A program made the translations under genes and the position numbers. A stretch of 64,000 nucleotides of DNA from Cypionkella psychrotolerans. GTDB taxonomy: Bacteria; Pseudomonadota; Alphaproteobacteria; Rhodobacterales; Rhodobacteraceae. Below, piece after piece: positions 8,657 to 28,079 of this stretch. The stretch covers positions 1-64,000 of the forward strand of contig NZ_LGIC01000088.1 of assembly GCF_001294535.1 (NCBI RefSeq), in the 5' to 3' direction. The notes under the pieces are model-generated. The model was not told the origin of the DNA and made no database searches. It saw only the letters and a program-made list of their open reading frames with translations. The first letter of the stretch is position 1. Every line of letters begins with the position of its first letter.

Positions 8657-8660
8657 GTCA

Positions 8661-9816: not shown

Positions 9817-9818
9817 GT

Positions 9819-9947: not shown

Positions 9948-9968
9948 ATTGTTAAGGGGGTTGCGGGT

Positions 9969-10877: not shown

Positions 10878-11516
10878 TTACGGCTTCCAGCGCAGGAAAT
10901 TGCCGATCAGGCGCAGGCCAGTGGCTTGGCTTTTCTCGGGGTGGAACTGCATCCCCAGCATGGTGTCGCGGCCGATGATCGCGGTGATGTCGCCCGCGTA
11001 ATCAACATGGGCGAGTCGTTCGCCGGGGTTTTCAACGCGGAAATGGTAGGAGTGGACGAAATAGGCGTGGTCGCCGGTTTTGATTCCTTCGAGCACCGGG
11101 TGCGGGTGGTCGATGATCAGGTCGTTCCAGCCCATATGCGGGACCTTTAGGCTCGGATCGCTGGGGGTGATTTTCACCACTTCGCCCGGAATCCACGCGA
11201 AGCCCTTGGTGTCTTCGTATTCGCGGCCCCATGTGGCCATCATCTGCATGCCGACACAGATGCCCAAGAACGGACGGGCGCGGCGTGTGACGGCTTCCTC
11301 AATGGCCTCAAACAGCCCGCCGTAAGTGCCCAAGGCGCGGCGGCAGGCGGGGAAGGCGCCGTCACCAGGCAGCACGATCCGGTCGGCGCGGGCGACATCC
11401 TCGGGGCGGGAGGAGACCAGCACTTCGCCCGCATCGGTTTCCAGCGCCATGCGTTGGAACGCCTTTTCAGCCGAGTGCAGGTTGCCGGAATCGTAGTCTA
11501 CGAGGACGGTGAGCAT
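10878..11516 (-). CDS. hisH: HisH, glutamine amidotransferase subunit of IGP synthase
   Basis: A 212-residue class I amidotransferase that supplies ammonia to HisF. The nucleophile is Cys87 in FLGICVGMQMMA, and the His192/Glu194 dyad is in GMQFHPEKSQ. It starts LTVLVDYDSGNLHSAEKA, typical for HisH. It lies between hisB and glsA on the minus strand, convergent with the hisA-hisF-hisE unit. Confidence 0.97.
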   Translation of the reverse strand: MLTVLVDYDSGNLHSAEKAFQRMALETDAGEVLVSSRPEDVARADRIVLPGDGAFPACRRALGTYGGLFEAIEEAVTRRARPFLGICVGMQMMATWGREYEDTKGFAWIPGEVVKITPSDPSLKVPHMGWNDLIIDHPHPVLEGIKTGDHAYFVHSYHFRVENPGERLAHVDYAGDITAIIGRDTMLGMQFHPEKSQATGLRLIGNFLRWKP

Positions 11517-11549
11517 TTTGACGGGCCTTGGGTTGCTGGGGCGTCGGAT

Positions 11550-11582
11550 GCCTCCGGCGGGGATATTTGAGCGCAGAGGATG
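11550..11582 (-). repeat. Dispersed intergenic repeat, copy 4, within the hisB-hisH gap
   Basis: Plus-strand reading: GCCTCCGGCGGG, then GATATTTGAGC, GCAGAGGATG. It is the full-length form of the family and occupies much of the 89-base gap between hisB and hisH. Confidence 0.75.
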
Positions 11583-11605
11583 GGTTGAGCGGCAAAAAGC
11601 AGGGG

Positions 11606-12193
11606 CTAGAGTGCGCCTTTGGTGGAAGGCAGGACGCCTGCCATGCGGGGGTCGGGTTCGACGGCTTCGCGTAAGGCCCGCGCGACGGATTTGAAGGCGG
11701 CTTCGGCGATGTGGTGGCTGTTGATGCCGTGGATCAGATCGACATGCAGGGTGATGCCGCCGTGGGTGGCGAGGGCTTGGAAGAATTCGCGCACCAGTTC
11801 GGTGTCAAACGTGCCGATTTTGGCGGCGGTGAAGGCGATATTCCAGACGAGGAAGGGGCGTGCGGAGAGGTCTAACGCGCAGGCGACTTGGGTGTCGTCC
11901 ATCGCCAGCTGGAAATGGCCGTAGCGGCGTATGCCTTTCTTGTCGCCCAAAGCGCGGGTCAGGGCTTGGCCGAGGGCGATGCCGACGTCTTCGACGGTAT
12001 GGTGATCGTCGATGTGCAGATCGCCCGTGGCCTGAACGGTGAGGTCGATCAGCGAATGGCGGGCGAGTTGATCGAGCATGTGGTCGAAGAAGCCGACGCC
12101 GGTTTTGATCTTGGCTTGGCCGGAACCGTCGAGGTTGATGGCGACTTCGATCTTGGTCTCATTGGTGTTGCGGGTGATCTCGGCTGTGCGCAT
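11606..12193 (-). CDS. hisB: HisB, imidazoleglycerol-phosphate dehydratase
   Basis: A 195-residue monofunctional IGP dehydratase producing imidazole acetol phosphate. The metal-binding His/Glu motifs are all visible: [35 protein letters not shown], then [35 protein letters not shown] at the C-terminal side. The start at 12193 ([19 protein letters not shown]) is chosen; upstream codons are proline-rich and atypical. It is divergent from the phosphomannomutase gene with about 130 bases between starts. Confidence 0.97.
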
Positions 12194-12321
12194 CGGCGGC
12201 TCCGGTGTCAGGGTTGCGGCCTTATAGGGCGGGGGGGGCGGTTTGGAAAGGCTTTGGCTGCTGGACCTTTGGCGCAGGCCGCCTATTGTGGCGCGGATAT
12301 TTGGCGGCAATCTGGTGAGAC

Positions 12322-13695
12322 ATGACAACTTATACCTGCTTCAAGGCCTATGACATTCGCGGCAAGCTCGGCGACGAGCTAAATGCAGATATTGCGCGGC
12401 GGATCGGACGGGCGTTTGCCGAGGGCTTGGGGGCAAAGCGCGTGGTGCTGGGGCAGGATTGCCGGGCGTCCTCGGCGGAACTGGCGCAGGCTGTGGCCGA
12501 GGGGCTGGTGGCGGCGGGGGGCGAGGTGATGGATCTGGGCCTGTGCGGCACCGAGGAGATGTATTTTGCCACCACGGCGCTGGAGGCGGATGGTGGCATC
12601 GAGGTGACGGCCTCGCACAATCCGATGGATTACAATGGCATGAAGATGGTGCGGCGGGGGTCTGCGCCGTTGGATGCTGCGACTGGGCTGGCGCGGATCA
12701 AGGCTTTGGCGGAGAGCGGGGCATTTGCTGAGGCGTTGCCTGCGGGGCGTGTGGTCGATGCTAGCGGGACTCGGGCGGGGTTTGTCGAGCGCGTGTTGTC
12801 GTTTGTTGATGTGGGCGCGCTGCGACCTTTGAAGATCGTGGTGAACGCGGGCAATGGCGCGGCGGGGCCGACGTTTGATGCGATTGCTGAGGCTTTGGCG
12901 GCGGCGGGGGCTCCGCTGGAGTTTGTGCGAATGCATCATCAGCCGGACGGCAGTTTTCCGAACGGCATCCCGAACCCGTTGTTGCCGGAAAACCAACCGG
13001 TGACGGCGGCGGCGGTCGTTGCGGCGGGGGCGGATATGGGCGTGGCTTGGGATGGCGATTTCGACCGTTGCTTCTTGTTCGATGCGAGCGGTGGCTTTGT
13101 GGCCGGGGAATATCTCGTCGGGTTGTTGGCGGAAGTGTTTTTGGCGAAAGAGCCGGGGGCCGTGATCATCCATGACCCGCGGGTGATCTGGAACACGCAG
13201 GATGTGGTGGCGCGGGCGGGCGGGACCACGGTAGCGGCACCGACAGGGCACGCGTTTCTGAAGCAGGCGTTGCGCGATACCGGGGCGATTTATGGCGGCG
13301 AGATGTCGGCGCACCACTATTTCCGCGATTTCATGGCCTGCGATTCTGGGATGATCCCGTGGCTGTTGGTGGCGGAGCTGATGGGGCGGTCGGGGCTTTC
13401 GCTCGCCGATCTGCTGGCGGCGCGGCGGGCGGCGTTTCCGTCTTCGGGTGAGATCAACTTTCGGGTCAAGGACGCCAAGGCCACGGTGGCGCGGATCGAG
13501 GCGGTTTATGCGCCGCAAGCGGTCGGGCGGCAGGATATCGACGGGTTGTCGCTGGAGTTTGGCGATTGGCGGTTCAATTTGCGGTCTTCCAACACCGAGC
13601 CGTTGCTGCGGCTGAACGTGGAATCGCACGGGCGGCTGGATCTGGTAGAAAAGGCCGTGGCGGAGATTTCGGCTTTGATCGGGTCGGTGGGCTGA
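12322..13695 (+). CDS. Phosphomannomutase / phosphoglucomutase
   Basis: A 457-residue alpha-D-phosphohexomutase interconverting hexose 1- and 6-phosphates for polysaccharide precursor supply. All four domains show their loops: phosphoserine Ser98 in [11 protein letters not shown], the metal loop DGDFDR at 244-249, the sugar-specificity loop GEMSAHHYF at 326-334, and the phosphate-binding SSNTEPLLR at about 422-430. GEMSAHH is the type seen in bifunctional PMM/PGM enzymes. The gene is single, with a hairpin-bearing repeat after it. Confidence 0.95.
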
Positions 13696-13817: not shown

Positions 13818-15341
13818 TTACATCACCGCACCGATTTGCCATGGCACGAACTCGGCCCCACCAAAGCCGAGGTCTTCCGAGAAGGTGCGCTGTCCTGACG
13901 CCACAGCGATGACTTTCTCAAGGATTTCAGCACCTTTCGCGGCGATGCTCACACCGTTTGTGAGGATGTCGCCGCAGTTGATGTCCATATCTTCGGCCAT
14001 GCGGGCATACATTTCACTGTTGGTCGCAAGCTTGATGCAGGGGCTGGGTTTATAGCCGGAGACTGAGCCGCGTCCGGTGGTGAAGATGATCATCGTGGCC
14101 CCGGAGGCGATTTGTCCGGTGACGGAACAGGGATCATAGCCGGGGCTGTCCATATAGGTGAAGCCGGGGGTGGTGATCGGTTCGGCGAATTTATAGACGC
14201 CGACGAGGGGGGCTGTGCCGCCTTTGGCGACGGCGCCGAGGGATTTCTCCAGGATCGTGGTCAAGCCGCCCTTTTTGTTGCCGGGGGAAGGGTTGTTGTC
14301 CATCTCGCCGCCGTTGCGGGCGGTGTAATCTTCCCACCACTGGATGCGTTCCAGCAGTTTCTCGCCAACCTCTTTCGAGACGGCGCGGCGGGTCAGCAGG
14401 TGTTCGGCACCGTAAATCTCGGGGGTTTCTGACAGGATTGTAGTGCCGCCCATCTGCACCAGCAAGTCGGACATATGTCCAAGTGCCGGATTGGCGGTGA
14501 TGCCGGAATAACCGTCCGAGCCGCCGCATTGCAACCCGATGATCAGCTTGGAGACTGGCGCAGGGGCGCGGCCGGTATGGCTGGCGACCTCGGCCATCTC
14601 GCGCAGAACCTTCAGTCCCGCGGCAATCGTGGCGCGGGTGCCGCCGGTTTGCTGGATGGTCATGTAGCGGAAATTGCCATCGGGGCGCAGGCGGCCTTGG
14701 CCGACGAGGTCTGGCACCTGCATCACTTCGCAGCCCAACCCCACCAGCAGGATGCCGCCGAAATTGGCGTTGCGGGCGTAGCCTTTAAGGGTGCGCATCA
14801 GGGTGTCGTAGCCCTCATTCACGCCAGACATGCCACATCCGGTATTGTGCACGATGGGCACAAAGCCGTCGATATTCGGCATTGCCGACAGCACCGGGTC
14901 TTTCTCGGCGGCTTCGGCGATAAAGCGGGCGACCGAGCCGGAGCAGTTCACCGAGGTGAGGATGCCGATGTAATTGCGGGTGCCGACTTGGCCATCGGCG
15001 CGGTGGTAGCCCAAGAATTCACGCGGCGGCAAAGCGGGCAGCGGGTGGCTTTCGCTGCCGATGGCGTAATCGTCGGTATGTGGCCCCATGCCGAGATTGT
15101 GGCTGTGAATATGCGCGCCGGGGGGGATATCGACCAAGGCTTGACCGATGATCTGGCCGTAGCGGATCACCTGCTCGCCCGCAGCAATCGGGCGGGTGGC
15201 GATTTTGTGGCCACGGGGAATCGCTTGGGTGGTGGCAATCTCCAGCCCGCCCGGCTGCGCCCCTGCGGGCAGATCGACCAAGGCGATCACCAGATTATCG
15301 GCTGGATTTAACCGTATCACACTTTGATTGCTTTGTAACAT
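13818..15341 (-). CDS. UxaA-family altronate/galactarate-type dehydratase
   Basis: A 507-residue sugar-acid dehydratase of the UxaA/GarD family, which removes water from hexonates using iron. It has an N-terminal SAF domain (about 10-95, RLNPADNLVIALVDLPAG ... GHKIATRPI) and the two-part GD_AH region, with HNTGCGMS, LQCGGSDGYSGITANPALG, MDSPGYDPCSVTGQIASGAT and INCGDILTNG. Cys and His residues for the metal are present. UxaA from E. coli is similar in length. It is divergent from a GntR regulator with only 52 bases between them and the palindrome CTAACATGTTAG there. The actual acid (altronate, galactarate, fuconate or other) cannot be told. Confidence 0.9.
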   Translation of the reverse strand: MLQSNQSVIRLNPADNLVIALVDLPAGAQPGGLEIATTQAIPRGHKIATRPIAAGEQVIRYGQIIGQALVDIPPGAHIHSHNLGMGPHTDDYAIGSESHPLPALPPREFLGYHRADGQVGTRNYIGILTSVNCSGSVARFIAEAAEKDPVLSAMPNIDGFVPIVHNTGCGMSGVNEGYDTLMRTLKGYARNANFGGILLVGLGCEVMQVPDLVGQGRLRPDGNFRYMTIQQTGGTRATIAAGLKVLREMAEVASHTGRAPAPVSKLIIGLQCGGSDGYSGITANPALGHMSDLLVQMGGTTILSETPEIYGAEHLLTRRAVSKEVGEKLLERIQWWEDYTARNGGEMDNNPSPGNKKGGLTTILEKSLGAVAKGGTAPLVGVYKFAEPITTPGFTYMDSPGYDPCSVTGQIASGATMIIFTTGRGSVSGYKPSPCIKLATNSEMYARMAEDMDINCGDILTNGVSIAAKGAEILEKVIAVASGQRTFSEDLGFGGAEFVPWQIGAVM

Positions 15342-15380: not shown

Positions 15381-15400
15381 CTAACATGTTAGCATGTTAC
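15381..15400. promoter_or_regulatory. GntR operator candidate, site 1
   Basis: Perfect 12-bp palindrome CTAACATGTTAG at 15381-15392, extended by a further half site CATGTTAC that contains the regulator's own ATG (15394). It lies in the uxaA-gntR divergent promoter. Matching sites occur at 17278 and 24064. Confidence 0.75.
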
Positions 15401-16125
15401 AGCTCGATGACGCCTTCTCACAAGACCCGATCGCGGATAATCCCCGCTTGCAACCGCTTGAAGCGTTCTCTGGATCGCTGGGCGCGAAGGTCTATCAAAC
15501 GCTGCGGCAGGCGATTTTATCGCTGAGTTACCGCCCCGGTGAAATTCTGCGCAAGCCCGAGATTTGCGCGGAATTGGGGGTGTCGCGCAGCCCGGTGTCG
15601 GATGCGGTGGCGCGGCTGGCGGGGGAAGGGCTGGTCGATGTGGTGCCGCAAGCGGGCACCTATGTGGCGCGATTCTCGATGGCCGAAATCCGCGAGGGCG
15701 CGTTTCTGCGTGAGGCGATTGAGTTGCAGGCGATCGAGCTGGTGGCCGACAGCATAAGCGATGAGCAGTTGGTGACCTTGCGGCGCAATATCACCGTGCA
15801 GGCGGCGCTGCTGGCCGATGGCGATTTTCCGGGGTTTTATCAACTCGATGGCGAGATGCACGAGTTGATCCGCAGCTTTACCGGCTTTCGCAAGCTGTCG
15901 GCGGTGGCAGAAACCGCTTGGGTGCATGTCGAACGCGCGCGGCGGTTGGTGCTGCCGGTGGATGGGAGGGTGGCGGCGACTTTGGAAGAGCACCGCGCGA
16001 TTCTGTCGGCATTGGAGGCGCGTGATCCGCAGGCAGCGCGGGCGGCGATGCGGCTGCATTTGCGGAAATTGGTGACCTATCTGGAGCCATTGGAGCGCAG
16101 CCACCCGGAGTTGTTTAATCCTTAA
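15394..16125 (+). CDS. GntR-family (FadR/FCD) transcriptional regulator of the sugar locus
   Basis: A 243-residue regulator. Winged HTH at about 30-95 (LRQAILSLSYRPGEILRKPEICAELGVSRSPVSDAVARLAGEGLVDVVPQAGTYV) and a helical FCD ligand domain after it, with candidate metal-binding residues in YQLDGEMHELI, EEHRAIL and MRLHLRKLV. FCD regulators typically bind sugar acids or other organic acids. The start ATG lies inside the operator and has no good ribosome-binding site, so it may be translated from a leaderless or very short transcript, or start slightly later. It is divergent from the UxaA-type gene and probably controls it and two other promoters. Confidence 0.92.
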   Translation: MLQLDDAFSQDPIADNPRLQPLEAFSGSLGAKVYQTLRQAILSLSYRPGEILRKPEICAELGVSRSPVSDAVARLAGEGLVDVVPQAGTYVARFSMAEIREGAFLREAIELQAIELVADSISDEQLVTLRRNITVQAALLADGDFPGFYQLDGEMHELIRSFTGFRKLSAVAETAWVHVERARRLVLPVDGRVAATLEEHRAILSALEARDPQAARAAMRLHLRKLVTYLEPLERSHPELFNP

Positions 16126-16237: not shown

Positions 16238-17257
16238 TCAAACCGGAGCGTCCGGGTGCAGCAGGCCTTGTGCCTTCAGATCGGCCCAGAGAGCGGGCGG
16301 AATCTCGGTCTGTGCTGCGGTGACGTTGCTGTCCATTTCGGCCACACCCTGACCGCCGGGGATGTTTGAGATCACCGCTGGATGGAGCAAAGGAAACTGA
16401 AAGGCGGCATCGACGAGGCGGACGCCATGGGTTTGGCAGGCGGCTTGCAGGGCGGTGACGCGGGCGAGAATGTGGTCTGGCGCGGGGTCGTAGTTATAGA
16501 ACGCGCCGGGTTTTGGCCCGGTGGCGAGGATGCCGGAGTTGTAGGGGCCTCCGATGATGATACCGACGCCGCGTTTTGTGGCGAGCGGCAGGAAGCTCGC
16601 GAGGGGGGCTTGTTCGAGCAGCGTATAGCGGCCCGCGAGCAGGAACAGGTCGAAATCGCCGCGCTCGAGCAGCCATTGGCAGGGTTGCCATTCGTTGACG
16701 CCCGCGCCGAAGGCTTTGATCACGCCTTGGTCACGCAATTCGATCAGGGCGCGGTAGCCGCCGGACATGAACTCGGACAGTTTGGCGTCAAGACCGGATT
16801 GCGAGCGATGGTTGGTGACGTCGAGATCATGGGCGTAGAGCACGTCGATGCGGTCCAGTCCCGTGCGTTCGAGCGAGGCGTCAAGCGAGCGCATCACGCC
16901 GTCATAGCTGTAATCGTAGACCTCATTGCGCGCGGGCACCTCGAACCATTTGCCCATACCGTCACGCTGATCGGGCGGGCAGGGGCGCAGATGGCGGCCG
17001 ATTTTGGTTGAGATAACATAGCTGTCACGGGGCTTGCTGCGCAGGAAATGGTTCAGCCGGGTCTCGGACAGGCCCAGACCGTATAGGGGTGCGGTGTCGA
17101 AGTAGCGCACGCCAGCCTCCCAAGCGCGGGTCAGCACGGCTTGGGCGTCGGCTTCGGAAATCGCGCGGTAGAGGTTGCCGATTGGCGCGGCACCAAAGCC
17201 TAGTTCGGTGAAGTTCAACCCGCCATTGCCCAAACGATCCCAGTGTCTGATCCGCAT
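16238..17257 (-). CDS. Aldo-keto reductase, D-threo-aldose 1-dehydrogenase-like
   Basis: A 339-residue NAD(P)-dependent TIM-barrel oxidoreductase. The AKR tetrad is visible as Asp and Tyr in YFDTAPLYGLGLSE, Lys in VISTKIGRHL, and His in VLYAHDLD. The sequence style (LGFGAAPIGNLYR, GKWFEVPARNEVYDYSYDGVMRSLDASLERTGLDRID) matches the AKR group that oxidises L-fucose, D-arabinose and similar aldoses at C1 to lactones, and pyridoxal. The start at 17257 has GAGGGG upstream; an in-frame ATG at 17284 lies inside the operator. It is divergent from the BtpA operon. With FucU mutarotases nearby, a sugar lactone-forming role is likely, but the substrate is inferred. Confidence 0.9.
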   Translation of the reverse strand: MRIRHWDRLGNGGLNFTELGFGAAPIGNLYRAISEADAQAVLTRAWEAGVRYFDTAPLYGLGLSETRLNHFLRSKPRDSYVISTKIGRHLRPCPPDQRDGMGKWFEVPARNEVYDYSYDGVMRSLDASLERTGLDRIDVLYAHDLDVTNHRSQSGLDAKLSEFMSGGYRALIELRDQGVIKAFGAGVNEWQPCQWLLERGDFDLFLLAGRYTLLEQAPLASFLPLATKRGVGIIIGGPYNSGILATGPKPGAFYNYDPAPDHILARVTALQAACQTHGVRLVDAAFQFPLLHPAVISNIPGGQGVAEMDSNVTAAQTEIPPALWADLKAQGLLHPDAPV

Positions 17258-17277
17258 CTTCGTCCCCTCAATTTTCA

Positions 17278-17296
17278 CTGACATGCTAGTATGTTC
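17278..17296. promoter_or_regulatory. GntR operator candidate, site 2
   Basis: CTGACATGCTAG at 17278-17289 differs from the perfect palindrome at two symmetric-ish positions and is followed by TATGTTC, similar to the extension at site 1. It is placed between the aldo-keto reductase and BtpA gene starts. Confidence 0.6.
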
Positions 17297-17350
17297 TGCC
17301 TTCCCGGCCAATGGCTTTCGCGCTAGCCTTTGCAAAACGGGAGGGTTTTT

Positions 17351-18160
17351 ATGACACGCTTTGCGCAGGTGTTTGGGGCGAAGAAGCCGGTGATTGCGAT
17401 GGTGCATCTGGGGGCAATGCCAGGAACGCCGCTGCATGATCCCGAGGCCGGGGTGGAGGGGATCATCGCCGGGGCCTTGGCGGATTTGGCGGCGCTGCAG
17501 GCGGCGGGCTTTGATGCGGTGATGTTTGGCAATGAGAATGACCGACCCTATGAATTGAAGGTCGATCAGGCCAGCACGGTGACGATGGGCTATGTGATAG
17601 GCCGCCTGCACAGCCAGATCACGGTGCCGTTTGGGGTGAATGTTTTGTGGGACCCGATGGCGACGATGGCTTTGGCGGCGGCGACGGGGGCGGCTTTCGT
17701 GCGGGAGATTTTCACCGGCACTTATGCCAGCGATATGGGGGTTTGGGCACCGGATGCCGGGGCGGCTTTGCGCTATGGTCAGCGGATTGGCGCGGGCGGT
17801 GTGGCGAAATTGTATAACGTTTCGGCAGAGTTCGCTGGATCTTTGGATCCGCGCAGCTTGCCGGATCGGGCGCGTTCGGCGGTGTTTTCTTCGATCCCCG
17901 ACGCGGTGCTGGTGTCGGGAGCGATCACTGGCGAAGCTGCGAAGATGGTCGATCTGGAGGCGGTGAAGCGGGTATTGCCCAATACGCCCGTGCTCGCGAA
18001 TACGGGCGTCAAGCATGACACCGTGGCAGAGGTGCTGCGGGTGGCGGATGGTTGCATCGTCGGCTCGGCGTTGAAGCAGGGCGGCGATACTTGGGCGGCG
18101 GTGGACCCTGCGCGGGCGCGGGATTTCATGGACCGCGTGCGCGCGGTGCGGGGGGCATGA
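17351..18160 (+). CDS. BtpA/SgcQ-family protein
   Basis: A 269-residue predicted TIM-barrel protein of the BtpA/SgcQ family. Family blocks: PVIAMVHLGAMPGTPL (15-30), AALQAAGFDAVMFGNENDRPY, VPFGVNVLWDPMATMALAAATGAAFVREIFTGTYASDMGVW and the C-terminal ANTGVKHDTVAEVLRVADGCIVGSALK. BtpA was linked to photosystem I in cyanobacteria, while SgcQ belongs to an E. coli sugar operon of unknown substrate; here the SgcQ-type role fits. The start at 17351 has GGGAGGG upstream. It overlaps the next gene by four bases. Confidence 0.9.
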   Translation: MTRFAQVFGAKKPVIAMVHLGAMPGTPLHDPEAGVEGIIAGALADLAALQAAGFDAVMFGNENDRPYELKVDQASTVTMGYVIGRLHSQITVPFGVNVLWDPMATMALAAATGAAFVREIFTGTYASDMGVWAPDAGAALRYGQRIGAGGVAKLYNVSAEFAGSLDPRSLPDRARSAVFSSIPDAVLVSGAITGEAAKMVDLEAVKRVLPNTPVLANTGVKHDTVAEVLRVADGCIVGSALKQGGDTWAAVDPARARDFMDRVRAVRGA

Positions 18161-19245
18161 TGCGGGCGCTTTTGACCGAATTGATGCTGGTCCCCGGTCT
18201 GTCGGGCTATGAGGAGCGGGTGGCGGGCTGCATCGGGCGGCATCTCGATGGCTTGGGGATCGCGCATCGCAGCGACCGTTTGGGCAATCTGATCGCGACC
18301 TTGCCGGGTGATCCGGAGGCACCCTCGGTGATGGTGTTCACCCATATGGATCAGTTGGGCTTTATTATCCGCAAGGTCGAGGAGTCTGGCCTGATCCGGC
18401 TGGAGAGATTGGGCGGAGTGCCGGAACGCGCTTTGGCCGCGCAGGCGGTGCTGATCTGCACCGAACAGGGCGATCTGCCGGGGCTGATTGCCAACAAAAG
18501 CCACCACGCCACGACACCGGACGAAAAATACCGGGTGGTGCCCTATGCGGAACTTTACGTCGATGCGGGTTTCGCCAGCCGTGCCGAAGCCGAGGCGGCA
18601 GGGGTGAAAATTGGCTGCCCGGTGGTCTATCTGCCGCGCGTGATTGACCTCGCGGGCGAGCGTTTGGCGGGCACCTCGGTCGATGATCGCGCGGGCTGTG
18701 CGGCGCTGATTGATCTGGGGCGACGTCTGGTGGGGCGGAAATCAGGCCCGACGGTGCATCTGGTCTGGTCGGTGCAAGAGGAATACAACCTGCGCGGCGT
18801 GTTGCCTGCGGCGACCGCCTGCGCGCCGGATATTGCCCTGCAGATTGATCTGCTGCTGGCCTGTGACACCCCGGATATGACCCAGCGCGGCGAAGTGACT
18901 TTGGGCGGAGGGCCGGGAATTTCGCTGTATTCTTTCCACGGACGCGGCACCTTGAACGGGGTTATTCCGCATCCAGCATTGGTGAAGCTGTTCGAGGCTG
19001 CGGCCGAGGCGCGCGGACTGCCGCTGCAACGCTCGGCCCATACCGGGGCGCTGACCGATCTGTCTTATATTCAGTTCATGGGGACCGAAGGGGTTGCCTG
19101 TTTGGATGTGGGATTTCCGATGCGTTACAGTCACTCCGCTCTGGAAGTGCTGGATATGGCTGATCTTTCGGGGATGGTCGACTTGTTGGAACAAGCTTTG
19201 TCGCAGATTGGTCCGGGCTTTGATCTGAGCCGGAGGCCGCGATGA
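18157..19245 (+). CDS. M42-family metallo-aminopeptidase-like protein (SgcX/FrvX-like)
   Basis: A 362-residue M42/M20-fold dinuclear zinc hydrolase. Metal and catalytic motifs in order: VFTHMDQLG (His, Asp), SVDDRAGCAAL (bridging Asp), VQEEYNLRG (catalytic Glu pair), LACDTPD (Asp), and a late YSHSALE (His). In E. coli the same family (SgcX, FrvX) sits in sugar operons, so the real substrate may be a modified sugar rather than a peptide. The start ATG overlaps the BtpA gene stop and the end overlaps the kinase start, so it is tightly coupled. Confidence 0.9.
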   Translation: MMRALLTELMLVPGLSGYEERVAGCIGRHLDGLGIAHRSDRLGNLIATLPGDPEAPSVMVFTHMDQLGFIIRKVEESGLIRLERLGGVPERALAAQAVLICTEQGDLPGLIANKSHHATTPDEKYRVVPYAELYVDAGFASRAEAEAAGVKIGCPVVYLPRVIDLAGERLAGTSVDDRAGCAALIDLGRRLVGRKSGPTVHLVWSVQEEYNLRGVLPAATACAPDIALQIDLLLACDTPDMTQRGEVTLGGGPGISLYSFHGRGTLNGVIPHPALVKLFEAAAEARGLPLQRSAHTGALTDLSYIQFMGTEGVACLDVGFPMRYSHSALEVLDMADLSGMVDLLEQALSQIGPGFDLSRRPR

Positions 19246-20735
19246 GCTACACCCTCGGCGTCGACATTGGCACGTTTGAGACCAAAGGCGTGCTGGTAGA
19301 TGCCTCGGGTGTCATCGTCGCACAAGCCACGCGGTCGCATAAAATGCTGGTGCCGCAGTCTGGCTGGGCGGAGCATCGCGCTGAAGAAGATTGGTGGGGT
19401 GATTTTGTTTTTGTTACCAAGGTGTTGTTGGTAGAATCTCAGGTAAAACCTGAAGACATTGTGGCGGTGGCCTGCTCGGCCATTGGCCCCTGTATGCTGC
19501 CGGTGGACGCGTCAGGCAAGCCTTTGATGAATGGCGTGCTCTACGGCGTGGACACGCGGGCGGCGGCGCAGATCACCGAGCTGACCGAAAAGATTGGTGC
19601 TGATCTGATCATGGCGCGCTGCGGCAATGCACTGACCTCGCAATCGGTGGGGCCGAAGATTTTGTGGCTGAAACAAGAGCGCCCCGAGATTTACGCCCAA
19701 ACCGCGATGGTGCTGTCGGCGACGCCATATCTGACATGGAAGCTGACCGGGGACTATGTGATCGACCATTATACGGCGGCGAATTTCTCGCCACTGTATG
19801 ATGTGAACCGCTTGGCTTGGACGGATGAACTCGCCGCCGATATCCTGCCGTTGAACCGCCTGCCGCGTCTTGCGTGGAGCACCGAAATTGCGGGCCATGT
19901 GACGGCGCAAGCGGCGGCGGAAACCGGGTTGGCCGTGGGGACGCCGGTGACAGTTGGCACGATTGATGCGGCGGCAGAGGCGGTTTCGGTGGGGGTGAAA
20001 GACCCGGGCGAAATGATGATGATGTATGGCTCGACCATCTTCATCATCCAACTCACGGCGCTTCCAGTGCGCGACCCTCGGATGTGGTACGCGCCGTGGC
20101 TTTATCCCGGCCAGCACGCGTCGATGGCGGGGTTAGCTACCTCGGGCACACTGACGCATTGGTTTCGCGATCAGTTTGCCCGCGACTTGGGTGAGAGGGC
20201 GTTTGGGATTTTGGCGCGCGAGGCGGCGGCCAGCCCGAAAGGGGCGAAGGGGCTGCTGTGCCTGCCGTATTTCTCAGGGGAACGCACGCCGATTCATGAT
20301 CCGCAGGCGGTGGGGGCGTTCTTTGGGCTAAACCTGACTCATAGCCGAGGCGATCTGTTCCGCGCGGTGTTGGAGGGGATCGCGTCGGGGACGGCGCATG
20401 TGATGGAGGTGTGTCGCGAATTGGGGGCGGAACCTGTGCGGGTGCTCGCGGTCGGCGGTGGCACCAAGAATGCGGTCTGGATGCAGGCCACCTCCGATCT
20501 GGGCGGGGTGCCGCAGATTGTGGCGGAAAAGACCATCGGCGCGAGTTATGGCGATGCGTTTTTAGCGGCGGTGGCGGTGGGGCGAGTGTTGCCGGAGGAA
20601 ATCGCTGAGTGGAACCCGGTTGCGCGGGTGGTGCAGCCTTTGGCCGAAGCGGTCTATGCGCGGCAATATCCGTTGTGGAAGCGGCTCTATCAGCAAACTC
20701 GCGATATTGCGCAGGAATTGGGGGGCGGGGCGTGA
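19242..20735 (+). CDS. FGGY-family carbohydrate kinase
   Basis: A 497-residue sugar kinase of the xylulokinase/gluconokinase group, phosphorylating a sugar with ATP in the cytosol. N-terminal FGGY_N: LGVDIGTFETKGVLVDASG (5-23), substrate region GVLYGVDTRAAAQ and LKQERPEIYAQ. C-terminal FGGY_C: TVGTIDAAAEAVSVG, GLLCLPYFSGERTPIHDP, and the signature ending VRVLAVGGGTKNAVWMQATSDLGG. Typical length. It overlaps both neighbours by four bases. Substrate is not known; the SIS and BtpA partners suggest a ketose phosphate route. Confidence 0.93.
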   Translation: MSYTLGVDIGTFETKGVLVDASGVIVAQATRSHKMLVPQSGWAEHRAEEDWWGDFVFVTKVLLVESQVKPEDIVAVACSAIGPCMLPVDASGKPLMNGVLYGVDTRAAAQITELTEKIGADLIMARCGNALTSQSVGPKILWLKQERPEIYAQTAMVLSATPYLTWKLTGDYVIDHYTAANFSPLYDVNRLAWTDELAADILPLNRLPRLAWSTEIAGHVTAQAAAETGLAVGTPVTVGTIDAAAEAVSVGVKDPGEMMMMYGSTIFIIQLTALPVRDPRMWYAPWLYPGQHASMAGLATSGTLTHWFRDQFARDLGERAFGILAREAAASPKGAKGLLCLPYFSGERTPIHDPQAVGAFFGLNLTHSRGDLFRAVLEGIASGTAHVMEVCRELGAEPVRVLAVGGGTKNAVWMQATSDLGGVPQIVAEKTIGASYGDAFLAAVAVGRVLPEEIAEWNPVARVVQPLAEAVYARQYPLWKRLYQQTRDIAQELGGGA

Positions 20736-21280
20736 AGGACTTGATGCGGGGGGCGCTGGCGGAATTGGCGGCGGTGGCGGATCGGGTGAATCAGGTGGCG
20801 GTGGAGGCGGCTTGCGCGCGGATTTTGGGCGCGCGCCGGGTGATGCTCTATGGCTGCGGGCGTGAGGGGCTGATGATGCGGGCGCTGGCGATGCGGCTGT
20901 ATCATCTCGGGGTGGCGGTCTCGATGCAGGGCGACCTGACCGCGCCGCCTTTGGGGGTGGGGGATTTGTTTTTCGCCGCTTGTGGGCCGGGGGAGCTATC
21001 GACTGTCACGGCTTTGGCGGGAGTGGCGCGGGCGGCTGGGGCGGGGGTTTTGATGGTGACAGCGGAGGCTTCGGGGGCCTCGCTCGCGCTGGCGGATCAG
21101 GTTTTGGTGATTCCGGCGCAGACGATGGCGCGGGATGTAGGCGGGGATTCGGTGCTGCCGATGGGGTCGCTGTTTGAGGGGGCGATGTTTTTGGTGTTTG
21201 AAATTATGGTGCTGCGGCTGCGGCAGATGAAAGGTGAGGCTGCGGAAGCGATGCGGGCGCGGCATACCAATATGGAGTGA
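20732..21280 (+). CDS. SIS-domain sugar phosphate isomerase-like protein
   Basis: A 182-residue single SIS domain, closest in style to 6-phospho-3-hexuloisomerase (HxlB). Motifs: RVMLYGCGREGLMMRALAMRLYHLG (phosphosugar-binding loop), DLFFAACGPGELSTVTALAGVARAAGA, VLMVTAEASGASLALADQVLVIPAQTM and a C-terminal SLFEGAMFLVFEIMVL helix. Start is GTG at 20732, overlapping the kinase stop. Product of the upstream kinase may be its substrate. It is the last gene of the four-gene unit and is followed within one base by the 46-bp repeat. Confidence 0.85.
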   Translation: MKDLMRGALAELAAVADRVNQVAVEAACARILGARRVMLYGCGREGLMMRALAMRLYHLGVAVSMQGDLTAPPLGVGDLFFAACGPGELSTVTALAGVARAAGAGVLMVTAEASGASLALADQVLVIPAQTMARDVGGDSVLPMGSLFEGAMFLVFEIMVLRLRQMKGEAAEAMRARHTNME

Positions 21281-21326
21281 TGTCCACGCGTGGACAGTGT
21301 CGGCATCTTAGGGAAATCAATAGGTT
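21281..21326 (-). repeat. 46-bp repeat with 16-bp palindrome, copy B
   Basis: On the minus strand: AACCTATTGATTT, 17 different bases, TGTCCACGCGTGGACA. The conserved 29 bases and the spacing are identical to 6203-6248. It begins directly after the SIS gene stop. Confidence 0.85.
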
Positions 21327-21415
21327 AGAGTGGTGTTATTCACCCTTCGTTAACCTGTGCTCCGGGGGGCAGATTTCAAGTCGGATCGGCTTTGATAGGT
21401 GGTGGACCCTCCGGG

Positions 21416-21475
21416 GGGAGTATTTCAAAAAGAGCAAATATGGGTTCTTTGCATTGCTCTTTTTGAAATACTCCC
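21416..21475. terminator. Perfect 22-bp inverted repeat, AGTATTT variant of the dispersed repeat
   Basis: Arms at 21416-21437 and 21454-21475 (GGGAGTATTTC ... AAGAGCAA and its exact complement) around a 16-base loop, preceded by CCTCCGG. It lies between convergent transcripts (SIS and ribokinase genes) and can act as a bidirectional terminator. Confidence 0.8.
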
Positions 21476-21505
21476 GCGCGGCGCGCTCCTGCGCCAGCCA
21501 AAGGA

Positions 21506-22441
21506 TCAGGCGTTTTTCGCCAGCAGTGCGTCGATCTCGGCGCGGGACGGCATCGAAGGGGCTGTGCCTGCGCGGGTGACCGAAATCCCTGCCGTGGCGC
21601 AGCCGAAACGCACCGCTTCCACCATGTCGCGGCCTTCTGACAGGGCGACTGCAAAGCCGCCGTTGAAGGCGTCGCCTGCGCCGGTGGTTTCCACGACTTT
21701 GCCTGCCGACATCACGGGGACGTGGACGGAGCGGGTGCGGTCGCGGTAGAGCGCGCCTTTGTCACCGAGAGTCATCACCACGGCACCGACGCCGCGGCCC
21801 AGCAAAGCGTCGGCCGCGATTTCCGCTTCGGAAATCGTTGTCACAGGGAGCCCCGTCAGGGCCTCGGTCTCGGTTTCATTCGGGGTGACGTAATCGCAGA
21901 GGGCCAGAATGTCATCGCCCAAGGTCGCTGCGGGGGCGGGGTTGAGGATGGTGGTGACGCCAGCGGCACGGGCGATTTCCAGCGCGCGTTTGGCGGCGGG
22001 GATCGGTTGTTCCAACTGCGTCACGAAGATCGCGGCAGAGCGGATCAGATCGGCTTTTTCTTCAACGTCTTGCACCGAGACGCGGCCAGCGGCACCGGGG
22101 GATACGATGATGGCGTTGTTGCCAGTGGCTTCTTCGATGAAGATATAGGCCGCCCCGGTGTAGCTTTCGGCGTCGATTTTTACTTCCGGGATCACGCCCG
22201 CCTTCGCCCAGGTGGAGCGCGCGATTTCGGCGAAGGCGTCATCGCCGAGGCGGGTGATGAAATGGGTTTTACCGCCCGCCATCGCGGCAGCGACGGCTTG
22301 GTTGGAGCCTTTTCCGCCCGGCCCCAAGACGAAGGAATTGCCCAAGATCGTCTCGCCCATTTTGGGCTGACGGGCGGCGCGATAGGCGGTGTCGGCAACG
22401 AAAATGCCAAGGATAACAATCGGTTTTGCGGCTTTATTCAT
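21506..22441 (-). CDS. rbsK: Ribokinase-like PfkB-family carbohydrate kinase
   Basis: A 311-residue PfkB kinase. Substrate-binding start IVILGIFVADTAYRAARQPKMGETILG, the GGKGSNQAVAAAMAGG glycine motif at about 42-57, and the ATP-site signature VVETTGAGDAFNGGFAVAL with catalytic Asp near 252. Ribokinases phosphorylate ribose C5-OH, but PfkB specificity cannot be fixed by sequence reading alone. The gene follows FucU-like and ATPase genes on the minus strand with only one base between it and the FucU-like gene, so it belongs to the sugar uptake operon. Ribokinase by similarity; actual sugar uncertain. Confidence 0.88.
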   Translation of the reverse strand: MNKAAKPIVILGIFVADTAYRAARQPKMGETILGNSFVLGPGGKGSNQAVAAAMAGGKTHFITRLGDDAFAEIARSTWAKAGVIPEVKIDAESYTGAAYIFIEEATGNNAIIVSPGAAGRVSVQDVEEKADLIRSAAIFVTQLEQPIPAAKRALEIARAAGVTTILNPAPAATLGDDILALCDYVTPNETETEALTGLPVTTISEAEIAADALLGRGVGAVVMTLGDKGALYRDRTRSVHVPVMSAGKVVETTGAGDAFNGGFAVALSEGRDMVEAVRFGCATAGISVTRAGTAPSMPSRAEIDALLAKNA

Positions 22442-22442
22442 C

Positions 22443-22898
22443 TCATTTGACCTCTGGCGGGATCACGCCTTTACGGAACATGAAGCAGCCGTAGAAGCGG
22501 CGCTCTCCGGTTTGGATCACCGCATAGGCCTCGCGGGCGATGTCGTAGAAGGCGAAACGCTCGATGGAGATCATCGGGCGATCAGAGCCTTCGGCGGCGT
22601 TGATTTCGGCTTGGACCTCGGCTTGCACCGCGGGGATTTCATCGGGGCTGCCTACGACTTCCATGCGGCCCGCGAAATCGGCCACGAAAGTGTCGAGCGG
22701 ATAGACCGAGAGGATCGCTTGGGCCGCTTCGGCGCAGGTAAGGTTTTCCATCCTGAGCAGTTTGCCCGTGACCGTGGCGCGGGCCACCGAATCCGACGGG
22801 AAATTGGTATCAGCCAAGATCAGCACATCGCCGTGGCCCATCGCGCGCAGGCAATGCAGCACTTCCGCGTTCAAGCGCGGGTCAATTCCTTTGAGCAT
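22443..22898 (-). CDS. RbsD/FucU-family sugar mutarotase (first of two)
   Basis: A 151-residue mutarotase that speeds interconversion of sugar anomers or pyranose/furanose forms. FucU-type features: MLKGIDPRLNAEVLHCLRAMGHGDVLILADTNFP with the catalytic His, Asp region GHGD..ADTNFP, and the C-terminal ERFAFYDIAREAYAVIQTGERRFYGCFMFRKGVI with substrate-binding Tyr/Arg. A second 151-residue paralog lies at 28079. Co-transcribed between the ABC ATPase gene and ribokinase-like gene. Confidence 0.92.
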   Translation of the reverse strand: MLKGIDPRLNAEVLHCLRAMGHGDVLILADTNFPSDSVARATVTGKLLRMENLTCAEAAQAILSVYPLDTFVADFAGRMEVVGSPDEIPAVQAEVQAEINAAEGSDRPMISIERFAFYDIAREAYAVIQTGERRFYGCFMFRKGVIPPEVK

Positions 22899-22943: not shown

Positions 22944-23996
22944 TCAAGCCAGCCTTTGCCCGCTGGCTTTGTCGAAGATATGCGATTGGGTGGCGTCGGG
23001 GGCGAGGGTGATGCTTTCGCCGGGGCGGAAGCTGACACGCTCGCGGAATACGGCGGTGACTTCGCGGCTTGGGGTTCGCACGACGACATGGGTTTCTGAG
23101 CCTGTGGGTTCCACCACGGCGATGGTGCCTTTCAGACCTTCACTGCCTGCGGTGAAGGTCTCGGGACGCACACCGTAGACGATCTTTTGGCCCTCGGTCG
23201 CGGTCGATCCGGGCGGCAAAGCCAGTCGCGCGCCGTCCACATCAACCATGCCGCCTTTCACCACACCGTCGATCAGGTTCATCGAGGGTGAGCCGATGAA
23301 AGAGGCGACGAAGATATTGGCGGGACGGTCGTAAAGTTCCAAGGGTGCGCCGACTTGTTCGATGCGGCCGCCCTGCATGACGACGATTTTATCGGCCATG
23401 GTCATCGCTTCGATCTGATCGTGGGTCACATAGACAGTGGTGGTTTTCAGGCGCTGGTGCAGTTCTTTGATCTCGGTCCGCATTTGCACCCGCAGTTTGG
23501 CGTCGAGGTTGGAGAGCGGCTCGTCAAACAGGAACACTTTGGGGTCACGCACGATGGCGCGGCCCATGGCGACACGCTGGCGCTGCCCACCCGAAAGCGC
23601 GCGTGGGAAGCGGTCGAGATAGGGGGTGAGGCCAAGAATTTCGCCCGCCCGCTCGACCTTCTGGCGAATCGCACCGGCCTCCATACCGCGCATTTTCAGC
23701 GCAAAGCCCATGTTGGCGGCGACGGTTTTATGCGGGTAAAGCGCGTAGTTCTGGAACACCATGGCGATGTCGCGCTCGGACGGCGGCAGGTTGTTGACGC
23801 GGGCGGTGCCGATGCTGATATCGCCTGCCGAAATCTCCTCCAGCCCCGCTAGCATGCGTAAAAGCGTGGACTTGCCGCAGCCGGAGGGGCCGACGAGCAC
23901 CACGAACTCGCCATCCTTGATATCCAAGTTCAGGCCATGAATCACCTGCACCCCGCCATAAGCCTTGCGCAGATCGCGGATTGTGACTTCAGCCAT
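22944..23996 (-). CDS. Sugar ABC importer ATPase (MalK/UgpC type)
   Basis: A 350-residue CUT1 importer ATPase. Walker A is GPSGCGKST (about 38-46), followed by the Q-loop in MVFQNYALYPHKT, signature LSGGQRQRVAMGRAIVR, Walker B KVFLFDEPLSNLD and H-loop YVTHDQIEAMTMADKIVVM. The C-terminal third is the TOBE/OB regulatory domain (VYGVRPETF, VVEPTGSETHVVVR). Start at 23996 has GAGGGGG; the longer frame is rejected. Divergent from the binding protein gene of the same importer, with a GntR operator between. Confidence 0.94.
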   Translation of the reverse strand: MAEVTIRDLRKAYGGVQVIHGLNLDIKDGEFVVLVGPSGCGKSTLLRMLAGLEEISAGDISIGTARVNNLPPSERDIAMVFQNYALYPHKTVAANMGFALKMRGMEAGAIRQKVERAGEILGLTPYLDRFPRALSGGQRQRVAMGRAIVRDPKVFLFDEPLSNLDAKLRVQMRTEIKELHQRLKTTTVYVTHDQIEAMTMADKIVVMQGGRIEQVGAPLELYDRPANIFVASFIGSPSMNLIDGVVKGGMVDVDGARLALPPGSTATEGQKIVYGVRPETFTAGSEGLKGTIAVVEPTGSETHVVVRTPSREVTAVFRERVSFRPGESITLAPDATQSHIFDKASGQRLA

Positions 23997-24063
23997 GTGG
24001 TTCCCCCTCGTTGTTGCCGCAAGAATAGTCACGCCGGGGGGCGCTGTCTATCTGCTGATCATA

Positions 24064-26028: not shown

Positions 26029-27135
26029 GTGAGCAGTTCAGGCGATCTTCTACACGTTGTCAGCAATGACAATATCTCGGATCAGCGTCGCGCGCTGGGG
26101 CGGGGCATCATCTGGGGCTCGGCGGCGTTGATGGCGCTGGTGGCTTTGGTGCAGCTTTTGCAGGTGCAGGGTCTGCATGACTTCGGCCTGACGAGTTGGC
26201 GGCCAACGCTTTACGCTTATATCTTCTGGGCGATTTGCCTCAGCTGGGGGCAGGTTTTGCTGCATGGTGAGCATGGCAAGCGTACTTTGTTCGTGCTGCC
26301 TGCGGCGTTGTTTGTGATCTCGCTGACGGTGTTTCCGTTGCTGTTCGGCTTGGTGATTGCGTTTTCCGATTGGAACCTATCGAGCCCGGATGGCCGGCAT
26401 TTTAACGGACTGACCAATGTGCGGCAGATGTGGGCCGATCCGTTCTACTGGAACGCGCTACTGAACATGGTCTGGTATGTGCTTGCGATCCTTGTGGAAT
26501 ATGCGATTGCCTTCGGGCTGGCTTTGGCTTTGAACGCCGAGATCCGGGCGCGGAAGTTCTTCCGGGTGGCGTTTCTGCTGCCGTTGATGCTGAGCCCCGT
26601 GGCGGTCAGTTGGATGATCGGCAAGTCGATGCTGGAGGCGCGGTTTGGCCCGGTCGCGCGGTTGGCGCGGTTTCTGGGCTGGGAGACGCCGTCGTTCTTT
26701 GGCACCCCCGGCGTGGCTAAGGCAACGATCATGCTGATGGATGCGTGGACCTTCATTCCGTTTATGATGATCATGATTTTGGCGGGCTTGCAGGCGATCC
26801 CGAAAGAGTTGAACGAGGCGGCCAAGGTCGATGGCGCGAATGGCTGGCGGGCGTTTTGGGAGGTCACGTTCCCGATGATGCTGCCAGTGTCGATCACCGC
26901 CATCCTGATCCGGATTATCTTCAAGCTGAAGCTGGCCGATATCGTGATTGCAGTCACGTCCGGTGGGCCGGGCGGGGCGACCGATACGGTGACTTCGTTC
27001 ATTTTCCGTGAGTATAGGGACCGCTCGAACGTCGGCTACGGCACGCTTCTGGCGATGTTCTATTTGGTGCTGATCATCATCGTGATGACGATTTTGATGA
27101 AGCTTGCGGATCGGTTTGCGAGGCCCCGGACATGA
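26029..27135 (+). CDS. Sugar ABC importer permease (MalF-like)
   Basis: A 368-residue inner-membrane permease with about seven or eight hydrophobic segments; two lie before the family core (IIWGSAALMALVALVQLLQV and LYAYIFWAICLSWGQVLL). The EAA coupling loop to the ATPase is KELNEAAKVDGANGWRAFWEVTFPMMLP. Starts at GTG 26029; no strong ribosome-binding site was seen. Overlaps the second permease gene by four bases. Confidence 0.92.
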   Translation: MSSSGDLLHVVSNDNISDQRRALGRGIIWGSAALMALVALVQLLQVQGLHDFGLTSWRPTLYAYIFWAICLSWGQVLLHGEHGKRTLFVLPAALFVISLTVFPLLFGLVIAFSDWNLSSPDGRHFNGLTNVRQMWADPFYWNALLNMVWYVLAILVEYAIAFGLALALNAEIRARKFFRVAFLLPLMLSPVAVSWMIGKSMLEARFGPVARLARFLGWETPSFFGTPGVAKATIMLMDAWTFIPFMMIMILAGLQAIPKELNEAAKVDGANGWRAFWEVTFPMMLPVSITAILIRIIFKLKLADIVIAVTSGGPGGATDTVTSFIFREYRDRSNVGYGTLLAMFYLVLIIIVMTILMKLADRFARPRT

Positions 27136-28079
27136 GTAAAGCTGGCATGAGTGAGGCCAATATGAACGGGCAGATTTTCAAGGATTCGGCCGCCGACCGC
27201 AGCTTTCGCCCAAAATGGTTCACCGGGCGGCTGTTCGTTTATGGCCTGCTGATCCTGTGGGCATTTATCTGTTTATTTCCAATCTATTGGACGCTGACCA
27301 CCAGCTTCAAAATGGCCCCCGACGTGATGAAGGGCAATCTGATACCGTGGCTTGATTTCACTCCGAAATGGCTGGGTTGGAAGTCTTTGGGTCTGTCGCC
27401 CGATACGATTGGCGCCGATAGCACGGTGCGCGATGAGTTTATGAAGCGCTTCACCAATTCGGCGATCACCTCGGTGACATCCTCGGTTCTGGCGGTGATG
27501 CTGGGGTCGCTGGCGGCTTATGGGTTGAGCCGCTTTAACTATAAATTCCTGTGGATGGGCAATAGCGACATTTCATTCTTTTTCCTAAGCCAGTTGATCC
27601 TGCCGCCGGTAGTTTTGGCGCTGCCGATGCTGGTGCTGTATAAAGAACTGGCGCTGCTGGATACGCGCATCGGCTTGATTTTGCTCTATACCCTGTCGGT
27701 GCTGCCGATCGTGATCTGGATCATGCGCGACCAGTTTTCCTCTATTCCGACCGAGTTGGAGGAGGCGGCATTGGTCGATGGCCTGTCGATCTGGGGCGCG
27801 TTTATCACCATCATTCTGCCGATTGCATTGCCGGGGATGGTGGCGGCGTTCATTCTGTCACTGGTGCTGACGTGGAACGAGTATTTCTTCGCGGCGCTGC
27901 TGACCTCAACCCATGCCAACACTTTGCCGGTGATGGTGGCCTCGCAAACCGGGTCACAGGGGATTTCGTGGTGGTCGATGGCGGCGCTGTCGTGGGCCGC
28001 GATCTTGCCGCTTATTGTGATCGGCGTGGTGCTGGAGCGCTATATTATCAAGGGCATGGCGGCTGGGGCGATTAAGTAA
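27132..28079 (+). CDS. Sugar ABC importer permease (MalG-like)
   Basis: A 315-residue permease with six predicted membrane helices, beginning after a polar 35-residue tail with LFVYGLLILWAFICLFPIYWTLTTSFK. The EAA loop is TELEEAALVDGLSIWGAFITIILPIALPG, near the C-terminal side as in MalG. It partners the upstream permease and the ATPase at 22944. Its stop overlaps the start of the second FucU-like gene by one base. Confidence 0.93.
   Translation: MSKAGMSEANMNGQIFKDSAADRSFRPKWFTGRLFVYGLLILWAFICLFPIYWTLTTSFKMAPDVMKGNLIPWLDFTPKWLGWKSLGLSPDTIGADSTVRDEFMKRFTNSAITSVTSSVLAVMLGSLAAYGLSRFNYKFLWMGNSDISFFFLSQLILPPVVLALPMLVLYKELALLDTRIGLILLYTLSVLPIVIWIMRDQFSSIPTELEEAALVDGLSIWGAFITIILPIALPGMVAAFILSLVLTWNEYFFAALLTSTHANTLPVMVASQTGSQGISWWSMAALSWAAILPLIVIGVVLERYIIKGMAAGAIK

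Follow-up and report, generated by a model that had tools for sequence, protein, structure and literature searches.

The sgc operon of Escherichia coli (sgcX-B-C-Q-A-E-R) encodes the BtpA-family protein SgcQ and the M42 metallohydrolase SgcX, together with the IIA, IIB and IIC components of a phosphotransferase system (PTS), and no kinase gene lies between sgcX and sgcR. A PTS phosphorylates its sugar on entry. As far as the excerpt of PMC13343008 goes, the function of sgc is unestablished, the operon is induced on nitrogen-containing slow-growth carbon sources, and sgc mutants have no growth defect on Biolog panels. A different kind of route, Route III for L-fucose and D-arabinose, is set out in the excerpted part of PMC6336799: it uses a UxaA/GarD-type D-arabinonate dehydratase and ends in a short-chain dehydrogenase/reductase (SDR) and an FAH-family hydrolase, giving pyruvate and glycolate or lactate, and the same excerpt mentions an L-galactonate dehydratase of the UxaA/GarD superfamily as unpublished data. 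In the literature that we searched, neither SgcX nor the BtpA family, SgcQ included, has an established biochemical sugar-use role.

Here we describe a locus of Cypionkella psychrotolerans in which relatives of SgcQ and SgcX are encoded in one row with an FGGY sugar kinase and a SIS-domain isomerase. It lies in the first 64,000 nucleotides of contig NZ_LGIC01000088.1 (contig C88 of the 5.08-Mb assembly GCF_001294535.1), a stretch that we call the window. The locus resembles sgc in having SgcQ and SgcX relatives in a single gene row, but sgc adds PTS uptake genes and the SgcE epimerase, whereas the window has an ATP-binding cassette (ABC) importer, FGGY, SIS, an aldo-keto reductase (AKR) and a UxaA-type dehydratase. 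SgcA, SgcB, SgcC, SgcE and SgcR had no match in the window at E 1e-4; it is thus not an E. coli-type sgc operon. Rather, the locus is a conserved catabolic cluster of known families around a known, unexplained protein pair.

The overlapping genes and their kinship with SgcQ and SgcX

A first-pass annotation of this locus had claimed that the BtpA, M42, FGGY and SIS genes overlap by four bases each, and the open reading frames (ORFs) bear this out exactly: the BtpA/M42, M42/FGGY and FGGY/SIS junctions read ATGA, ATGA and GTGA, the GTG start of the SIS gene overlapping the FGGY stop. Overlaps of this length suggest that the products may be translated jointly.

The BtpA gene, the only one in the genome above the family cut-off, scored 241.3 bits on PF03437 (cut-off 30) and 244.1 on TIGR00259 (cut-off 153.4); on the photosystem I biogenesis model NF045918 it scored 155.5, below the cut-off of 400. 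The M42 protein likewise belongs to its family (PF05343, 232.5 bits against a cut-off of 23.2), and its HxD, DDR, EE, D and H motifs, which we take to be the metal ligands, are conserved in alignments. It fell below the cut-offs of three models for characterized M42 aminopeptidases (NF007421, 143.6 of 412 bits; NF040822, 147.3 of 700; TIGR03107, 105 of 469.7) and, by eye, has no evident signal peptide. The FGGY protein reached 287 of the 380.25 bits set for the xylulokinase equivalog TIGR01312. For the SIS protein, PF01380 gave 20.7 bits (Pfam cut-off 25) and the HxlB model TIGR03127 gave 147.3, just under its equivalog cut-off of 160, a score by which we class it as 6-phospho-3-hexuloisomerase-like.

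The kinship with the E. coli pair that had been proposed for two of these proteins is genuine. The window BtpA is 47% identical to SgcQ, and across 345 residues the window M42 and SgcX share 35% identity. In a tree of M42 proteins, which drew a program warning about long branches that meet, the window M42 and SgcX fell in one clade (100/98) that excluded YpdE, FrvX and four more proteins. A seven-residue insert, HGRGTLx, was found in all 16 M42 proteins of the SgcX clade and in none of the other 6; by "SgcX-type M42" we mean membership in this clade plus the insert, a definition of this analysis and not a curated family. In a survey of the phylum, whose first look was limited to 5 or 6 candidates per genome and so may have missed some, all five M42 matches under E 1e-70 (the window included) lay in BtpA loci and carried the insert. 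Among 20 weaker matches, none lay near a BtpA of E 1e-25 or better, and the insert was absent from all 5 whose loci were returned. Because insert and BtpA locus coincide in five of five matches, the SgcX-type M42 is tied to the SgcQ-type BtpA more firmly than by the shared E. coli operon alone. The converse fails, as many BtpA loci have no M42.

Conservation of the BtpA-M42-FGGY core

We compared 80 loci, the best 80 of at least 587 confirmed BtpA relatives in a scan of named genomes, mostly from Rhodobacterales and otherwise from other alphaproteobacteria. The gene counts, made by tblastn, concern close BtpA relatives (down to 69% BtpA identity) and not the whole family. M42 lies downstream of BtpA within 1.5 kb in 79 of the 80 loci and FGGY within 3.5 kb in 77, with both present in 76; as for the four misses, L129 has no FGGY match, L136 has no M42 match despite room for one, and L085 and L115 stop at a contig end. 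By a simple start-codon rule, the overlap is exactly four bases at 41 of 79 BtpA-M42 junctions and 30 of 76 M42-FGGY junctions. SIS occurs in 16 loci, and 15 of these have it no more than 1.5 kb downstream of FGGY. Since BtpA, M42 and FGGY stay together in 76 of the 80 loci across this range of identity, their grouping goes beyond chance: the three genes form a conserved core, to which SIS is occasionally added. The first-pass annotation had expected one conserved neighbourhood of all four genes, which held for BtpA, M42 and FGGY and failed for SIS; what it observed is correct and, for BtpA, M42 and FGGY, holds more strongly than it had claimed.

Among the other partners, importer permeases were found in 60 loci, AKR in 61, GntR in 40, UxaA in 32 and RbsK in 25 (23 at 45% identity; 46 of 114 by looser clustering). 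Relatives also carry xylose-isomerase-like (46 loci), lactonase-like amidohydrolase (33), creatininase-family (31), SDR (11) and FAH hydrolase (8) genes. The creatininase-family gene (e.g., L079:13564-14295), absent from the window, follows FGGY within 2.5 kb in 26 of its 31 loci, and its product scored 38 of 245 bits on the inosose hydrolase model IolN, a weak kinship. Clustering left 57 additional ORFs of at least 110 amino acids, each standing for one cluster, of which we pooled and scanned 40; only the periplasmic binding domain and major facilitator superfamily families had two members, and no polysaccharide-degrading gene emerged, there being no glycosidase among the first 25 of 51 families for these 40 ORFs. 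A distance correlation of 0.73 between BtpA and FGGY over 31 loci was dropped as a sign of co-evolution because it mostly reflected a two-group split and shared ancestry.

At the level of the genus, a BtpA match at E 0.001 was present in 13 of 61 genomes (own included) and in 8 of the 15 from the window's genus, itself included. M42 and FGGY matches follow BtpA in all seven genus loci and SIS matches in three; genomes G001, G005 and G006 probably correspond to L071, L070 and L074 of the 80 loci. In a sample of the class, 17 of 385 genomes carried BtpA at E 1e-15, one contig (G260) stopping just past the gene; contig C69 of G199 carries M42, FGGY and the importer, and its roughly 150 bases 5' of M42 show no BtpA end. 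In a sample of Pseudomonadota, 18 of 398 genomes carried BtpA at E 1e-25; this sample overlaps the 80 loci, contig C19 of G656 probably being L082. No BtpA was confirmed in the viral contigs searched.

Proposed order of the steps, probable class of the sugar and rival explanations

The phylum sample gave 17 further BtpA loci, and all 17 had a kinase-family or PTS match no more than about 10 kb away. They represent five or more settings: a fucose-like one that contains M42 and FGGY (L181 and L182); DeoR-BtpA-permease-M42-FGGY-RbsA-RbsC-DhaK (L180); all or part of SDR-DeoR-FGGY-HAD (L183, L185 and L186, group B); sgc (L192); all or part of PTE-amidotransferase-PfkB-BtpA-M20 (L184, L187 to L191, L193 and L195, group C); and two looser settings (L194 and L196). 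The kinase support is weakest in L196 (24% identity), and the orientation is opposite in L190, L191 and L193. Like the window, the alphaproteobacterial and Thermus operons of group B combine a 50 to 73% identical BtpA with a nearby FGGY and mostly a CUT1 importer, but they have SDR, often with HAD, in place of M42, and their FGGY is only 31 to 35% identical. Group C also has sugar kinase, BtpA and metal hydrolase in a row, but the BtpA is distant (about 30%), the kinase is PfkB and not FGGY, and the hydrolase is M20 and not M42. In the loci of groups B and C that we viewed, BtpA had no M42 neighbour, and operons of both groups were found on plasmid records too. The BtpA proteins of Shinella and Labrenzia group with those of L137, L149 and L180 (98/96) within the window-type group, but their partners are an SDR instead of M42 and an FGGY only 32 to 33% identical to the window's; the Thermus BtpA (67%) falls in the same larger group (89/82), and there too the kinase differs. 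Because a kinase or PTS is present in every setting while other partners change, and because Shinella and Labrenzia pair a window-type BtpA with a different FGGY and an SDR, BtpA probably acts after the kinase, where supply routes converge.

The predicted structure is consistent with this placement. An AlphaFold2 (AF2) model of BtpA is a TIM barrel (pLDDT 86.8), and most of its close fold matches in the PDB bind phosphate or diphosphate (2-keto-3-deoxy-6-phosphogluconate aldolase, geranylgeranylglyceryl phosphate synthase [GGGPS], HisF, TrpF, thiamin phosphate synthase and hexulose-phosphate synthase, all tied); a few rows, such as CutC and DUF1341, are not known phosphate enzymes. A BtpA profile matched a reconstructed TrpA over positions 181 to 263 (E 2.9e-6) and a natural TrpA (E 2.3e-5), so that the predicted fold and the kinship in the strand 6 to 8 part with the phosphate site are both those of a phosphate-binding TIM barrel. 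A single-sequence search found no solved BtpA-family structure, and the profile search gave only partial matches (TrpA, GGGPS and similar). From the constant presence of a kinase or PTS, the changed partners in Shinella and Labrenzia and this structural kinship taken together, we infer that BtpA may act on a phosphorylated ketose. HxlA and HxlB, the ribulose monophosphate enzymes, also combine a TIM barrel with an HxlB-like SIS, and 9lj9 was top, though tied, in one fold table; the window differs in that its SIS is below the HxlB cut-off and its BtpA belongs to another family.

The first-pass annotation had placed M42 in an initial hydrolysis ahead of the kinase, a proposal against which sgc argues. 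With a PTS and no kinase in sgc, the sgc sugar should arrive phosphorylated. As SgcX, by eye, shows no evident signal peptide, its substrate would be that phosphorylated sugar or an intermediate further along. Provided that the insert reflects a common chemistry, the window M42 would act after phosphorylation as well, which by this analogy appears more likely than an initial hydrolysis.

With regard to the sugar, the closest solved relatives of the window AKR are L-galactose dehydrogenases (8scc, E 8.5e-32), and the only NCBIfam match of the lactonase-like protein of relatives is L-fucono-1,5-lactonase, with 4dlf as its nearest solved structure. Like Route III as excerpted in PMC6336799, the locus has a UxaA/GarD-type dehydratase, with lactonase, SDR and FAH genes in some relatives, but that route has no evident place for kinase, BtpA or M42. 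When the Route III gene set was sought in the window, AKR and UxaA were present, and lactonase, SDR and FAH had no match there. By sequence, the surrounding arm resembles non-phosphorylative oxidation of L-fucose, D-arabinose or L-galactose, and the FucU-type mutarotases, the AKR, the lactonase-, SDR-, FAH- and isomerase-like genes of relatives and the PMC6336799 excerpt together point to a sugar of L-fuco, L-galacto or D-arabino configuration. The claim that no described pathway has this gene set holds for the literature searched, but part of the set, AKR and UxaA (with lactonase, SDR and FAH in relatives), resembles a known kind of non-phosphorylative route.

We propose a model of the whole locus to which we give an even chance. 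A sugar of this configuration, or a close derivative, would be imported and would enter two arms. In the oxidative arm, mutarotase, AKR and the UxaA-type dehydratase would act, joined in some relatives by lactonase, SDR and FAH hydrolase. In the phosphorylative arm, the FGGY kinase would phosphorylate a ketose, which in many relatives the xylose-isomerase-like enzyme would supply; BtpA would then convert the phosphoketose by C-C cleavage, epimerization or rearrangement, and the SgcX-type M42 would act on a phosphorylated intermediate or on the product of BtpA. A bolder form of the proposal, tentative and somewhat doubtful, is that SgcQ/BtpA would catalyse, on the phosphorylated product of its partner kinase or PTS, a reaction so far assigned to no protein family, and that the SgcX-type M42 would be a peptidase branch repurposed, with a substrate-binding insert of its own, to hydrolyse a sugar-phosphate intermediate.

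Several results weigh against the model. Lactonase, SDR, FAH and isomerase genes were not found in the window; elsewhere in the same genome, an isomerase-like gene has 52% identity, and another cluster about 80 kb away holds an FAH match of 68% and a lactonase-like match of 26% identity. The lactonase reached 185 of 400 bits on L-fucono-1,5-lactonase, and FAH, whose best model is 2,4-didehydro-3-deoxy-L-rhamnonate hydrolase, 431 of 500, both below cut-off. No PDB barrel family is singled out for BtpA (50 rows spanning Z 18.9 to 17.4), and a family missing from these rows is not thereby excluded. Only two of its lysines are nearly invariant, K12 before strand 1 and K242 beyond strand 8, which makes a classic Schiff-base aldolase less likely. 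Among the 17 BtpA-carrying genomes of the 385 in the class sample, M42 was seen beside BtpA only in the window and G308. No enzyme of the exact gene set has been characterized, and a single sugar would hardly need two complete routes, one of which would be redundant.

Two separate pathways, an oxidative one for fucose or arabinose and a kinase route for another sugar, might share importer and neighbourhood. This explanation, compatible with a post-kinase BtpA, draws on L137, L149 and L180, where BtpA, M42 and FGGY are kept with an RbsA/RbsC-type importer and DhaK and no oxidative gene was seen; since AKR, UxaA or lactonase is near the triad in 60 of 80 loci, we think it somewhat unlikely. The substrate might instead bear nitrogen, as an N-glycoside, amino-sugar or ureido conjugate that the kinase phosphorylates, whose glycosyl part BtpA cleaves or rearranges and whose C-N part the metal hydrolases open. 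The M42 beside BtpA in 79 of 80 loci and the creatininase family in 31 would suit such a substrate, as would the hydantoinase/carbamoylase-type M20 adjoining PfkB-BtpA, the TenA of one Klebsiella record, the gamma-glutamyltransferase that follows FGGY in three loci, the induction of sgc on nitrogen-containing carbon sources (PMC13343008, as excerpted) and the presence of TrpF, HisF and TrpA among the BtpA fold matches. The recurrent genes of group B (SDR, FGGY, HAD and DeoR) include no such hydrolase, however, although amidase, asparaginase and glutamyltransferase are near some; AKR, UxaA, FucU and the fuconolactonase-like genes indicate plain sugars; and the Biolog panels in the same excerpt showed no growth defect of sgc mutants. 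We therefore regard a nitrogen-bearing substrate as distinctly unlikely.

Initial hydrolysis, in which M42 would release from an unusual sugar derivative a product that is then phosphorylated and isomerized by SIS, is suggested by the M42 gene lying ahead of FGGY in the operon and by M42 being a hydrolase family. Reaction order need not follow gene order, the same M42 type pairs with a PTS in sgc, inspection by eye revealed no evident signal peptide on the window M42, and SIS is present in just 16 of 80 loci, all of which leaves this order quite improbable. It is very improbable that BtpA is a stabilizer or chaperone and not an enzyme: the excerpt of PMC11449065 does cite work in which cyanobacterial BtpA interacts with and stabilizes glutamyl-tRNA reductase, but a BtpA profile matches TrpA over the phosphate-site half, BtpA has many invariant polar residues, and the window protein scores below the cut-off of the photosystem model.

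Gene map, related contexts and meaning of the locus

The neighbours named in the first-pass annotation (AKR, UxaA, PfkB kinase, two mutarotases and CUT1 importer) were confirmed by family scans and in part by eye (Table 1); its span, 16238-22898, leaves out UxaA, GntR, the importer and the second mutarotase.

Table 1. Genes of the sugar cluster in the window
Feature	Position	Strand	Basis
UxaA/GarD-superfamily sugar-acid dehydratase	13818-15341	-	PF20629, PF04295, PF08666
GntR/FCD regulator	15394-16125	+	PF00392, PF07729
AKR, divergent from BtpA	about 16238-17257	-	PF00248; start codon picked by eye
BtpA/SgcQ-family TIM-barrel protein, SgcQ-type, 269 aa	17351-18160	+	PF03437, TIGR00259; 47% identity to E. 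coli SgcQ
SgcX-type M42 metallohydrolase, 362 aa	18157-19245	+	PF05343; HGRGTLx insert, M42 metal-ligand motifs, SgcX clade
FGGY sugar kinase, xylulokinase-like, 497 aa	19242-20735	+	PF00370/PF02782 (FGGY_N/FGGY_C)
SIS isomerase, 6-phospho-3-hexuloisomerase (HxlB)-like	20732-21280	+	TIGR03127; accessory in relatives
Ribokinase-type PfkB kinase	21506-22441	-	TIGR02152, 299.7 bits vs cut-off 299.65
FucU/RbsD-type mutarotase	22443-22898	-	PF05025; NF011949, 83.6 of 141 bits
UgpC/MsmK-type ABC ATPase, CUT1 importer	22944-24032	-	Sequence by eye; in 44/80 loci
CUT1 solute-binding protein, 527 aa	24318-25901	+	PF01547; AF2 model resembles CUT1-type binding proteins
CUT1 permease	26029-27135	+	Sequence by eye; permeases in 60/80 loci
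CUT1 permease	27132-28079	+	Sequence by eye; permeases in 60/80 loci
Second FucU-type mutarotase	28079-28534	+	NF011949, 69 of 141 bits

The binding protein gave no substrate clue in a PDB sequence search at E 0.001. Its AF2 model is modest (pLDDT 71.2), and a fold search with it matched CUT1 proteins generally and no particular ligand; a polyol ligand, as the top fold rows 4rya and 5iai might have implied, was rejected at only 18 to 20% identity. Elsewhere in the window, positions 7883-12328 hold what we take, by eye, to be the histidine biosynthesis genes for HisA, HisF, HisH and HisB, with a presumed glutaminase-like gene (9969-10877) beside HisH.

Several further gene combinations were seen. 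The cluster L203 (G000, contig C88, 88000-107000) has, with its FAH and lactonase-like genes, what appear by eye to be a CUT2-like importer, an enolase-superfamily-like dehydratase and SDRs, and is perhaps another non-phosphorylative sugar-acid route. L152, L153, L184 and L187 to L189, some of them on rhizobial plasmids, combine PTE-family, amidotransferase-like and PfkB genes with a distant BtpA, mostly M20 and a CUT2-like importer. The plasmid operons L036, L037 and L038 (Shinella, Labrenzia and Thermus) have a window-like BtpA, 67 to 73% identical, together with the kinase and SDR of group B, which suggests partner exchange. In L137, L149 and L180, the window-type BtpA, M42 and FGGY are accompanied by a regulator of DeoR type, an importer of RbsA/RbsC type and the dihydroxyacetone kinase subunit DhaK, a set that could fit an aldolase that releases dihydroxyacetone.

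If the bolder form of the proposal is true, the SgcQ-SgcX pair would be a portable catabolic module, served by an ABC importer and an FGGY kinase in alphaproteobacteria and by a PTS in enterobacteria. Since AKR and UxaA, with lactonase, SDR and FAH in relatives, resemble a known kind of route, the unknown part shrinks to the kinase, BtpA and M42. The alphaproteobacterial clusters, several of them in named strains, narrow the substrate by placing the pair with a kinase, an importer, mutarotases and oxidative enzymes, and the old question of what SgcQ and SgcX do becomes directly testable through the product of their partner kinase.

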